From positions 1-20,378 of IMG/VR virus record IMGVR_UViG_3300037672_001842: DNA of 20,378 bases, one strand, 5' to 3'. This DNA comes from a virus. The notes beneath the pieces were generated by a model. The model ran no database searches and was not told the DNA's origin. It saw only the letters and a list, made by a program, of their open reading frames with translations. Position numbers and translations under genes: made by a program. Below, one piece after another: positions 12,908-17,689 of the stretch; the stretch's first letter is position 1; every line of letters begins with the position of its first letter.

Positions 12908-12936
12908 TTTACAGATTGCTCAAAACGTGATATAAT
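12908..12936 (+). promoter_or_regulatory. Early sigma70-like promoter with long leader
   Basis: TTTACA (12908-12913), 17-nt spacer, consensus TATAAT (12931-12936). Its AGTA extension before the -35 is shared with the gp43, gp55 and MazG-like promoters. The predicted start near 12943 gives a leader of about 100 nt, unlike the very short leaders of the other early genes. Confidence 0.8.
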
Positions 12937-13044: not shown

Positions 13045-13332
13045 ATGACTGGAATCAAATACGATTCACAAAAACCAGACTATAGTTTAATCCCGCCTAA
13101 CGCGTTGGATGATGTAGTTAAAGTGTTAACTTACGGAGCTCAAAAATATGACAGAAACAATTGGCAACATCTTGAGAATCTTGATAGTCGTTATTTTGCT
13201 GCAGCGCAACGTCATCTATGGGCGTTGCAACGAGGCGAAACATTGGATGAGGAGACCGGCATTCATCATGCCGCACACGCAATTTGTTGCATGATGTTTA
13301 TGCTTGAATTTTATTATTTACAAACTGACTAA
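13045..13332 (+). CDS. dATP/dGTP diphosphohydrolase-family small protein (DUF5664-like)
   Basis: The 95-residue protein matches the small phage and bacterial family annotated as dATP/dGTP diphosphohydrolase N-terminal domain: KYDSQKPDYSLIPPNALDDV, VLTYGAQKYDRNNW, RYFAAAQRHLWALQRGE, and DEETGIHHAAHAICCMMF, with the HHAAHA histidines as likely metal or substrate contacts. The alpha-helical make-up recalls MazG-type NTP pyrophosphohydrolases. In a phage replication cluster it would adjust deoxynucleotide pools, but activity is inferred from family annotation. It is the first gene after gp46, with its own early promoter and an unusual structured leader. The gp45 promoter overlaps its last codons. 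Confidence 0.8.
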   Translation: MTGIKYDSQKPDYSLIPPNALDDVVKVLTYGAQKYDRNNWQHLENLDSRYFAAAQRHLWALQRGETLDEETGIHHAAHAICCMMFMLEFYYLQTD

Positions 13333-13345
13333 AACATTATATAAT
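13317..13345 (+). promoter_or_regulatory. Early sigma70-like promoter of the sliding clamp
   Basis: TTTACA (13317-13322), 17-nt spacer, TATAAT (13340-13345), followed by ATAC. The -35 lies within the last codons of the preceding gene. The ATG of gp45 is 9 nt after the -10, so the predicted leader is about 3 nt. Confidence 0.75.
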
Positions 13346-14669: not shown

Positions 14670-14745
14670 GCTCCGATAGCTCAGTTGGTAGAGCAGTTGA
14701 TTTGTAATCACCAGGCCGTCGGTTCAAGTCCGACTCGGAGCTCCA
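14670..14745 (+). tRNA. tRNA-Thr, anticodon TGT
   Basis: A complete cloverleaf of 76 nt: acceptor GCTCCGA/TCGGAGC, D-stem GCTC/GAGC, anticodon stem GTTGA/TCACC with loop TTTGTAA (anticodon TGT at 14703-14705), T-arm GTCGG-TTCAAGT-CCGAC, discriminator T and encoded CCA. The anticodon stem has one T-C mismatch at the second pair; all other stems are perfect. Threonine ACA reading would help an AT-rich genome in a host with fewer such tRNAs. It belongs to a pair with tRNA-Asn. Confidence 0.95.
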
Positions 14746-14750
14746 TTTAT

Positions 14751-14825
14751 TCCGAAGTAGCTCAGTGGTAGAGCGGGTGGCTGTTAACCACTAGGTCGTA
14801 GGTTCGAACCCTACCTTCGGAGCCA
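14751..14825 (+). tRNA. tRNA-Asn, anticodon GTT
   Basis: A complete cloverleaf of 75 nt: acceptor TCCGAAG/CTTCGGA, D-stem GCTC/GAGC, anticodon stem GGTGG/CCACT (one G-T wobble) with loop CTGTTAA (anticodon GTT at 14783-14785), T-arm GTAGG-TTCGAAC-CCTAC, discriminator G and encoded CCA. It follows tRNA-Thr after 5 nt, so both are probably processed from one transcript that continues from gp45. Confidence 0.96.
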
Positions 14826-14872: not shown

Positions 14873-15814
14873 ATGAGTAAAAGTGAATTCCTATGGGTTG
14901 AAAAATATCGCCCACAAACCATCAAAGATTGTATTCTTCCAGAAAGTCTAAAGAAGACTTTTCAACAAATTGTTGATACTGGAGAAATGCATAATATGTT
15001 ATTGACTGGTTCTGCCGGTCTTGGTAAGACTACAGTTGCACGAGCATTGTGTAACCAGTTAAATCTTGATTATATCATTATCAATGCTTCAGAAGAAAAT
15101 GGCATTGATGTTCTAAGATCTAAGATCAAGCAGTTTGCTTCATCTGTTTCTTTAAGTGGAGGAACGAAGGTTGTTATACTTGATGAAGCTGATTATCTAA
15201 ATGCACAATCAACACAACCAGCATTACGCGGTTTTATTGAAGAGTTTAGTACTAATTGTAGATTTATCTTAACGTGTAATTTCAAGAATAGAATTATTGA
15301 GCCTCTTCATTCAAGGTGTTCAGTTATTGAATTCAACACTACAAAAAAACAACTTGCCGCACTCGCCGCAGGGTTTATGAAAAGGATGCAGGATATCCTT
15401 ACTTCTGAAGGTGTTGACTTTAATAATAAAATTCTTGCAGAGTTGATTATGCGCTATGCACCAGACTGGCGCAGAGTTATTAATGAATGTCAACGCTACT
15501 CATCATCTGGCGAAATTACTTCAGATATTTTGATTGGCCTGTCAGATCAAAATATCGCTGCGTTAGTAGGATTCTTAAAGAGTAAGGATTTTAAGAGTAT
15601 GAGATCTTGGGTTACAAATAACACAGATGTAGATTCCTCTGTTATTTTTAGAAGAATCTATGATACGTTATATGATTTTGCTCAACCACAATCAATTCCA
15701 GCAATCATTCTAATCCTTGCTGATTACCAATACAAAGCAGGTTTTGTTGCAGACAAAGAACTAAATACTGTTGCGTGTCTCACAGAAATAATGGCTTCAT
15801 CTGAGTGGAAATGA
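14873..15814 (+). CDS. 44: Clamp loader large subunit gp44
   Basis: From ATG 14873 the protein has 313 residues (T4 gp44 is 319); a TTG two codons upstream is in frame but less likely. AAA+ clamp-loader features: EFLWVEKYRPQTI (5-17), Walker A TGSAGLGKTT (45-54), Walker B LDEAD (103-107), sensor 1 TCN (134-136) and the SRC arginine finger (147-149). The C-terminal collar domain follows. Four gp44 and one gp62 subunits load gp45 on primer-template DNA. It overlaps gp62 by four bases (ATGA, 15811-15814), the usual coupling that fixes subunit supply. Identification is secure. Confidence 0.96.
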   Translation: MSKSEFLWVEKYRPQTIKDCILPESLKKTFQQIVDTGEMHNMLLTGSAGLGKTTVARALCNQLNLDYIIINASEENGIDVLRSKIKQFASSVSLSGGTKVVILDEADYLNAQSTQPALRGFIEEFSTNCRFILTCNFKNRIIEPLHSRCSVIEFNTTKKQLAALAAGFMKRMQDILTSEGVDFNNKILAELIMRYAPDWRRVINECQRYSSSGEITSDILIGLSDQNIAALVGFLKSKDFKSMRSWVTNNTDVDSSVIFRRIYDTLYDFAQPQSIPAIILILADYQYKAGFVADKELNTVACLTEIMASSEWK

Positions 15815-16242
15815 GTAAAATAACACCGTTTACATTTATAAGCTCCATCAACGATGGACGTAAGGGAAAGCATTTGCTGAAAGATTGTAAAGCAGATCAA
15901 TCTCTAGAAATATCAAATCCCGATTCCATAGAAAAGGCGTATGTTCCTTTTGTAGTAAACCGATCATTATCTTATTTTAAAGATACTGTAATATTTGCTA
16001 ATGAAATGAACATCCATCATACACTACCTAATCGTATGCAGTATGACTTTTATAGAAACATGGTAACTGCAAAACGTAGATTTTCTAAATGGTCTAAAAA
16101 GGCTGACGCAACAGCTGACATAAAAATTATACAAAAAGAGTACGGTTATTCACGCGAAAAAGCAGAAGCCGTTTACACGCTATTTAGTAATGATGAGATA
16201 AATAAGCTTTATAAGAAACATGACAAGGGAGGGAAAAAATGA
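15811..16242 (+). CDS. 62: Clamp loader small subunit gp62
   Basis: The start is the ATG inside gp44's stop (15811), giving 143 residues; an in-frame GTG at 15805 is less likely. T4 gp62 is 187, so this is a short form as found in marine relatives. The middle carries the recognisable family core YVPFVVNRSLSYFKDTVIFANEMN and the MQYDFYRNMVTAKRRFSKW block (about 75-95). It completes the gp44/62 clamp loader but lacks ATPase motifs. Its stop overlaps the next small ORF (ATGA, 16239-16242), which has a strong GGGAGGG Shine-Dalgarno inside gp62's last codons. Confidence 0.92.
   Translation: MSKITPFTFISSINDGRKGKHLLKDCKADQSLEISNPDSIEKAYVPFVVNRSLSYFKDTVIFANEMNIHHTLPNRMQYDFYRNMVTAKRRFSKWSKKADATADIKIIQKEYGYSREKAEAVYTLFSNDEINKLYKKHDKGGKK
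16227..16233 (+). promoter_or_regulatory. Strong Shine-Dalgarno of the 30-aa microprotein
   Basis: AAGGGAGGG ends 5 nt before the ATG at 16239, ideal spacing. It encodes Gly-Gly near the end of gp62. Most genes here lack such a strong ribosome site, so it decides that the small ORF is likely translated. Confidence 0.7.
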
Positions 16243-16331
16243 AATTTAAAAAAACAATCGCCTCTGGTATATTAGCGGCCGTCGCTATTTCCGTTAAAAT
16301 ACTTATTCGCAAATTTAAAAATAAAAAGTAA
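16239..16331 (+). CDS. 30-aa cationic single-span membrane microprotein
   Basis: A short ORF (MKFKKTIASG, then ILAAVAISVK, then ILIRKFKNKK) fills the whole space between gp62 and the 83-aa gene. It starts in gp62's ATGA and ends in the TAATG of the next start, so it is coupled on both sides. GGGAGGG sits 5 nt upstream. Residues 6-23 form a hydrophobic stretch, interrupted by Lys20, with basic residues on both flanks (nine Lys/Arg in 30). It could insert in or bind the inner membrane, or act as an amphipathic peptide. No homologue is recognised, and nothing here tells its function. It may recruit the replisome to the membrane or affect the host envelope, but this is speculation. Confidence 0.68.
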   Translation: MKFKKTIASGILAAVAISVKILIRKFKNKK

Positions 16332-16582
16332 TGAGTGTTAAAATTGAAGTTACTAGTGAATTTGAAGAAGAAGCTAAGAAGGTATCAGAATTCACGAGAG
16401 AGTTAATGTTCCTAGCTGAAGAAAAAATCAAAGATCTTTTTGAAAAGGCTAAAAACGAAGAATGGTATACCGGCCCATCATTTATTATTGAAGATCTATT
16501 GTATGATTATTGTTTAAATAAAACAACTCAAAGACCATGGTCAAACTATTGCGGAGCTGATGTTATTTCCTCTAAAAAGTAA
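16331..16582 (+). CDS. Unknown 83-aa helical protein before regA
   Basis: Not recognised. The N-terminal half is a long charged helix (EFEEEAKKVSEFTREL, AEEKIKDLFEKAKNEEW), followed by YTGPSFIIEDLLYDYCLN and a Trp/Cys-containing end (RPWSNYCGADVISSKK). It may be a small protein-binding or nucleic-acid-accessory factor. Start and preceding stop overlap as TAATG, so it is coupled to the microprotein. It is the last gene of the gp44-62 unit before the regA late promoter. Confidence 0.78.
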   Translation: MSVKIEVTSEFEEEAKKVSEFTRELMFLAEEKIKDLFEKAKNEEWYTGPSFIIEDLLYDYCLNKTTQRPWSNYCGADVISSKK

Positions 16583-16624: not shown

Positions 16625-16632
16625 TATAAATA
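16625..16632 (+). promoter_or_regulatory. Late promoter TATAAATA before regA
   Basis: An exact late box lies 5 nt before the regA ATG at 16638, predicting a leaderless message. It is in a replication cluster otherwise driven by early promoters, so regA would gain extra late expression. Confidence 0.68.
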
Positions 16633-16637
16633 GTTCT

Positions 16638-17060
16638 ATGAACGAAGATATTATAGAATGGAAACCTACGAGCATGTTAGAGGTGCAAATTGAAGAACCT
16701 GATGATTTCCTAAAAATTAGAGAAACACTTACACGTATTGGTGTATCTTCTAAAAAAGAACAAAATACTTTATACCAAAGTTGTCATATTCTTCACAAAC
16801 AAGGTCGCTATTTTATCGTTCATTTTAAAGAACTTTTTCTTCTTGACGGCAAACCTTCAAACTTTACAGAGGACGACTTTGCTAGAAGAAACACTATTGC
16901 TACTTTACTTTCTGATTGGGGTTTATTAGAAGTTGTTATTCCAGAACAAGCTTCGCCTAAAACGTCTTTACGTTCTATTAAAATAATTTCACATCGCGAC
17001 AAAAAAGAATGGAATCTTGAATCAAAATATTCAATTGGTAACGTAAAAACGTATAAATAA
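16638..17060 (+). CDS. regA: Translational repressor RegA
   Basis: The 140-residue protein (T4 RegA is 122) matches the family: EVQIEEPDDFLKIRETLTRIG (in two parts, EVQIEEPDDFLKI and RETLTRIG), LYQSCHILHKQGRYFIVHFKE (residues about 45-65, in two parts LYQSCHILHK and QGRYFIVHFKE), LLSDWGLLEVV and the C-terminal KEWNLESKYSIGNV. RegA binds the start region of early mRNAs and blocks ribosome access. It has an N-terminal extension of about 12 residues compared with T4. Very short AU-rich leaders of gp43, gp44, gp45 and gp55 here would place its targets at the extreme 5' ends. The order 45-44-62-regA-43 is that of T4. Confidence 0.94.
   Translation: MNEDIIEWKPTSMLEVQIEEPDDFLKIRETLTRIGVSSKKEQNTLYQSCHILHKQGRYFIVHFKELFLLDGKPSNFTEDDFARRNTIATLLSDWGLLEVVIPEQASPKTSLRSIKIISHRDKKEWNLESKYSIGNVKTYK
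17052..17059 (+). promoter_or_regulatory. Late promoter TATAAATA before hsp20
   Basis: An exact late box overlaps the regA stop codon. The hsp20 ATG is at 17147, so the predicted leader (from about 17065) is about 80 nt. Confidence 0.65.
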
Positions 17061-17660: not shown

Positions 17661-17689
17661 TTTACAACTACCATTAAATAAGTTATAAT
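17661..17689 (+). promoter_or_regulatory. Early sigma70-like promoter of gene 43
   Basis: TTTACA (17661-17666), 17-nt spacer, consensus TATAAT (17684-17689), with the AGTA extension upstream. Just 6 nt separate the -10 from the ATG at 17696, so transcription would start on or next to the A of the ATG. Confidence 0.8.

Follow-up and report, generated by a model that had tools for sequence, protein, structure and literature searches.

The window analysed here is a whole virus record of 20.4 kb (20,378 nucleotides) from a T4-like marine phage. The nearest relatives of its gp44 are in Phage C48C1 (at 65% identity), in Methylophilales phage Melnitz (at 59%) and in cyanophages. Both C48C1 and Melnitz are placed in the Kyanoviridae, as is Mosig, and the DNA polymerase of the window is less than 50% identical to that of any isolate. 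The clamp loader genes gp44 and gp62 are followed by regA, and a very short reading frame lies directly behind gp62. The features of this region are as follows.

14873-15814, plus strand: gp44, clamp loader large subunit (AAA+; PHROG 168, E=2.1e-120), upstream in the same operon
15811-16242, plus strand: gp62, clamp loader small subunit (PHROG 225, E=1.8e-36; Pfam PF16790, Phage_clamp_A)
16227-16233, plus strand: ribosome-binding site GGGAGGG, seen in the sequence 5 nt before the microprotein ATG
16239-16331, plus strand: 30-aa microprotein gene (MKFKKTIASGILAAVAISVKILIRKFKNKK and stop), basic with a hydrophobic core; supported by the ORF list, homologues, an omega of 0.16 and a predicted helix over residues 3-29
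16331-16582, plus strand: 83-aa gene, family unassigned, its start overlapping the microprotein stop (TAATG)
16625-16632, plus strand: TATAAATA, a motif resembling T4-type late promoters, shortly before regA and kept in relatives
16638-17060, plus strand: regA translational repressor (PHROG 242, E=5.7e-58; Pfam PF01818), the downstream border of a variable slot

As read from the window sequence and the ORF list, the microprotein frame runs for 30 codons from the ATG at 16239 to a TAA ending at 16331, and with 93 nt including the stop it is close to the usual length limits of gene callers. The initial annotation had described a frame that starts in the ATGA of gp62 and ends in a TAATG, preceded by a well-spaced GGGAGGG and encoding nine basic residues. 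All of these details are borne out: the ATG overlaps the gp62 TGA (16240-16242), the final A of the TAA doubles as the A of the next ATG (16331), the ribosome site has the spacing listed above, and MKFKKTIASGILAAVAISVKILIRKFKNKK contains nine basic and no acidic residues. The GGAGG is retained in the alignment with those relatives whose frame adjoins gp62, and also in the related contig L007. A clear ribosome site is absent directly before the microprotein ATG of L008, and the true start may therefore differ in that contig.

The 83-aa gene that follows has no match in Pfam or PHROG and forms a conserved family of its own (omega about 0.15) with a recurrent WYxG...C...W..YC core. Further out, tRNA-Thr(TGT) and tRNA-Asn(GTT) genes precede gp44 at 14670-14825 and are kept in L005, L008, L010 and L019; L007 has a tRNA-Leu(TAA) in place of the tRNA-Asn gene. 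The TATAAATA motif at 16625-16632 lies 5 nt ahead of the regA ATG, and transcription from it would begin at or inside the start codon; a second such motif lies at 17052-17059, inside the last codons of regA. In a sister group of phages, a long hairpin containing TATAAATA sits directly upstream of the regA AUG (L200:2915-3010, with 16 outer pairs and z = -4.1; also L219:2910-3005 and similar loci in L201-L220), and could be an autoregulatory element for regA. The hairpin is weaker in L219 (z = -1.5) and absent from the window (z = +0.9).

Relatives were collected by searching IMG/VR with gp62 and regA, and were kept if the gp62-regA interval could be read and gp62 identity was 80% or more, which gave 15 contigs with the window counted. 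The initial annotation had called for a conserved small frame in related phages, and this expectation holds for part of the group. The frame is intact in nine of the 15 contigs (the window, L003, L004, L005, L007, L008, L010, L011 and L023), which represent seven distinct sequences; in four others (L012, L013, L014 and L019) its place is taken by another small basic-hydrophobic frame, and two (L006 and L017) have neither. Length differences among the homologues are of 3 or 6 nt only, always multiples of three, and the residues M1, K2, K4, K5, T6, G10, A13, A14, A16, S18, I23, R24 and K29 are invariant. A profile of the family detects every copy, with E values from 2e-16 to 5e-21, and finds no second copy (paralogue) in the 15 contigs. 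The same profile leaves L012-L014 and L019 unmatched even at E<=1, and the small frames of L019 and L012 are just 52% identical to each other as DNA; homology of these replacement peptides to the family is not claimed.

The window peptide matches no Pfam or PHROG family at E<=1, and tblastn against 50,697 phage records gave no match at E<=10. A scan with a five-sequence alignment recovered only the known contigs and hinted at the displaced copy in L008, while a degenerate DNA pattern (KFKNKK-stop-TGA) found, beyond the known contigs, only unrelated frames. Searches with the L019 and L012-L014 peptides produced no further contigs, and a regA search of genome contigs produced no relative. The frame was not seen in any of the more distant relatives examined, and no equivalent is annotated in the gp62-regA interval of the isolates C48C1, Melnitz and Mosig.

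Does such a short frame encode a protein? AT-rich DNA yields many short frames, dozens of them in the ORF list of this window, and one of just 30 codons could in principle be a chance occurrence or a DNA or RNA element with no coding role. The substitution pattern argues strongly otherwise. A maximum-likelihood codon model gives an omega of 0.16 for the microprotein, compared with 0.15 for the 83-aa gene and 0.043 for gp62, and omega = 1 is rejected (lnL of -337.60 when free and -350.97 at omega = 1, the latter taken as the best of five kappa values; 2ΔlnL ≈ 26.7), on an alignment of only 29-30 codons in which recombination is possible. The pooled pairwise pN/pS is 0.30. When the observed substitutions were shuffled, 5% or fewer of the shuffles had so few amino-acid changes in 12 of 21 pairs, the pairs not being independent of each other. 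Moreover, none of the seven sequences contains a stop codon, while 10-70% of the shuffled-substitution controls gain one in most pairs, and the indels preserve the frame. The test that the initial annotation had proposed, that of dN/dS, thus comes out non-neutral, and its view of the frame as a real gene gains from the intact homologous frames on eight other contigs and their purifying selection. We consider it very probable, from these comparisons, that the microprotein is a real translated gene; a chance frame or noncoding element is extremely improbable. The case provides a clean example of a 30-codon phage gene that can be supported from metagenomic relatives alone.

The close fit of the frame between its neighbours raises another alternative, namely that it is a device for translational coupling that mainly hands ribosomes on from gp62 to either the 83-aa gene or regA, with the peptide itself being irrelevant. 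The ATGA and TAATG overlaps and the strong ribosome site are what such a device would look like, and the slot is held by other peptides of similar size in L012-L014 and L019. However, purifying selection acts at the level of amino acids, and the frame is kept where the gp62 overlap is absent. In L003, L005, L010 and L023, gp62 ends in TAA and is followed by a separate microprotein ATG, so the ATGA overlap is dispensable, and L023 has no downstream gene coupled to the microprotein. In L007 and L008, the frame remains intact despite 0.7-1.5 kb of other genes after gp62. The coupling explanation is therefore very unlikely.

The two displaced copies differ in what separates them from gp62. The L007 insert (L007:4410-5208) holds three genes, encoding a 43-aa Cys-rich protein, a 140-aa protein with a borderline match to a mechanosensitive-channel domain (E=0.00057) and an 82-aa protein with a lipoprotein-like start. 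It is flanked by direct repeats of the gp62 tail and ribosome site (ATGACAAAGGAGGAA...ATGAAAT), 39 nt long, 82% identical and 760 apart, an arrangement that suggests recombination at the sequence of the ribosome site. In L008 (L008:4430-5941), genes of 304 and 218 aa stand between gp62 and the microprotein. The 304-aa gene is also present in L009 and L190, two contigs from one metagenome, where it is apparently followed directly by regA, with no microprotein.

The slot between gp62 and regA is variable in other ways. Against L010 and L023, the identity of L019 is 91-94% for gp62 and 95% for regA but only 59% for the small frame. L023 has kept the microprotein and lost the 83-aa gene, while L006 and L017 have the 83-aa gene without the microprotein. 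On the gp62 tree, the label for the small frame requires at least two changes among the labelled rows, with many of the branches being weak. In more distant relatives, regA directly follows gp62 or other genes occupy the slot, and in Melnitz and Mosig other genes separate gp44 from gp62. Small hydrophobic ORFs of other kinds lie before gp62 in L205, L213 and L216 (56 aa, about -645 to -474 before regA) and in L231 and L236 (about 50 aa, about -1040 to -890 before regA); the 56-aa ORF shows a resemblance to DUF2061 that falls short of the cut-off (E=0.077). The clamp loader operon of this group is thus a place where small genes come and go, and a small hydrophobic product within it is not unique. 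The initial annotation had called a membrane peptide in this operon unexpected. That surprise is lessened by what the relatives carry, namely small hydrophobic ORFs in the gp44-gp62 interval and a mixture of genes in the gp62-regA slot. The gp62-regA junction of the group is a hotspot for the insertion, loss and exchange of small accessory genes, in one case apparently at a ribosome-site sequence.

Considering its absence from L006 and L017 and its replacement in L012-L014 and L019, the microprotein is both dispensable and exchangeable. Such loss and replacement match the behaviour of genes for host or phage-phage conflict, unlike that of replication machinery. The 83-aa neighbour was considered as the partner in a toxin-antitoxin pair and rejected, since each gene occurs alone (the microprotein in L023, the 83-aa gene in L006 and L017).

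With the seven-sequence alignment, AlphaFold2 predicts one helix over residues 3-29 (mean pLDDT 86, about 95 over residues 11-20), although a lone helix from only seven related sequences is a weak prediction. The family members are 28-30 residues long with net charges of +8 to +10. The single hydrophobic span that had been proposed at first corresponds to this helix, but its ability to cross a membrane is less clear. The uncharged hydrophobic run is 12-16 residues, short for a spanning helix; a mid-helix Lys or Arg follows the hydrophobic part in six of the seven homologues; and the octanol score of the best 19-residue segment ranges across the family from -2.9 to +0.7 kcal/mol, that is, about zero. 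The C-terminal half is strongly amphipathic, with a mean moment of 0.66-0.79 over 11 residues. Because of the short run, the charged mid-helix residue and the near-zero octanol score, the helix may as plausibly be monotopic and amphipathic as membrane-spanning. The residues G10, A14 and S18 (i, i+4, i+8) are invariant and may form a face of small residues similar to those in helix-packing motifs. Overall, the product is probably membrane-associated.

Three sigma-70-like sites with 11 of 12 consensus bases (TTTACA-17-TATAAT) were found on the plus strand of the window, at 12908-12936, 13317-13345 and 17661-17689. The sites at 12908 and 13317 precede gp45-gp44-gp62, and the stretch of the window between 8725 and 16625 is free of TATAAATA late motifs. 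This combination suggests that the microprotein is transcribed along with the replication genes.

What we infer beyond a conserved, translated membrane helix is the following. The microprotein would be made together with the replication proteins from an upstream early or middle transcript. Its small-residue hydrophobic half (GILAAAAxS) would insert into the inner membrane of the host, with phospholipid head groups bound by the amphipathic cationic half (SVKLLIRKFKNKK), and the peptide might be oligomeric via the conserved G10/A14/S18 face. It would then act on the host membrane to the benefit of the phage, most likely in host takeover or in the exclusion of superinfecting phage. As an overall reading, an accessory gene of marine T4-like (Kyanoviridae-related) phages whose cationic helix acts at the host inner membrane is a reasonable possibility, which we favour while stopping short of calling it probable. 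The specific role in host takeover or superinfection exclusion is put forward more tentatively. Counting against the overall reading are the absence of any characterised homologue in Pfam, PHROG or the 50,697 phage records, the short hydrophobic stretch with its marginal octanol scores, and the fact that gene swapping is common among accessory phage genes irrespective of function. Somewhat more doubtful again is the idea of a new family of phage microproteins that retains the slot and the biophysics (basic ends, short hydrophobic core, mid-helix Lys or Arg) but exchanges its sequence from lineage to lineage, which would make it a membrane peptide undergoing host- or rival-driven diversification inside a replication operon.

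Other roles for a membrane helix fit the data less well. A toxin-like or lysis-related peptide that depolarises the inner membrane, like the small type I toxins or the accessory peptides of holin/antiholin systems, would share the size, the cationic helix and the amphipathic C-terminal half (moment as above). However, the gene is located in a replication operon instead of a lysis cassette, early uncontrolled depolarisation would hurt the phage, and there is no obligate antidote, the 83-aa neighbour being missing in L023 and standing alone in L006; we regard this role as unlikely. Alternatively, the conserved place of the frame immediately after gp62, as seen in the window, L003, L005, L010 and L023, could indicate a membrane tether or modulator of the phage replisome and a direct partner of gp44/gp62. 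If so, it is difficult to see how the close-relative clamp loaders of L006 and L017 manage without the microprotein, or how L019 has a different peptide at the same place with gp62 still >90% identical; in addition, the microprotein no longer adjoins gp62 in L007 and L008. A replisome partner is thus quite improbable, and host takeover or superinfection exclusion remains the reading that we prefer.

The results give the replication operon of marine T4-like phages a further microprotein family, one under selection and not classified before, and the general picture will stay unchanged until a function for the microprotein is shown. A close analogy is with the T4 superinfection exclusion proteins of the Imm/Sp type, the likeness being that of small, membrane-associated phage products (as predicted here). 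The imm gene is located in the early replication region of T4, and Imm, at 83 aa, is longer than the microprotein. Searches of Pfam and PHROG at E<=1 gave no homology to a known exclusion family. The small hydrophobic ORFs between gp44 and gp62 (L205, L213 and L216; L231 and L236) are alike in being short hydrophobic products of the same clamp loader operon, but occupy another slot, are longer and are unrelated in sequence. Bacterial type I toxin-like membrane peptides share a length of about 30 aa, a single helix and a cationic character; the microprotein differs from them in its lack of a constant antidote gene, its place in a viral replication operon and the absence of a family match. As a small phage protein, the microprotein is an ordinary kind of thing, even though the sequence family itself matches no Pfam family, PHROG or phage isolate. 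A review counts more than 2 million small phage genes (PMC11323111), and the small proteins it describes are similarly <100 aa, unassigned in function and easily missed. In comparison with these, the microprotein, which the consulted passages of the review do not name, is a specific and newly delineated family with evidence of selection.
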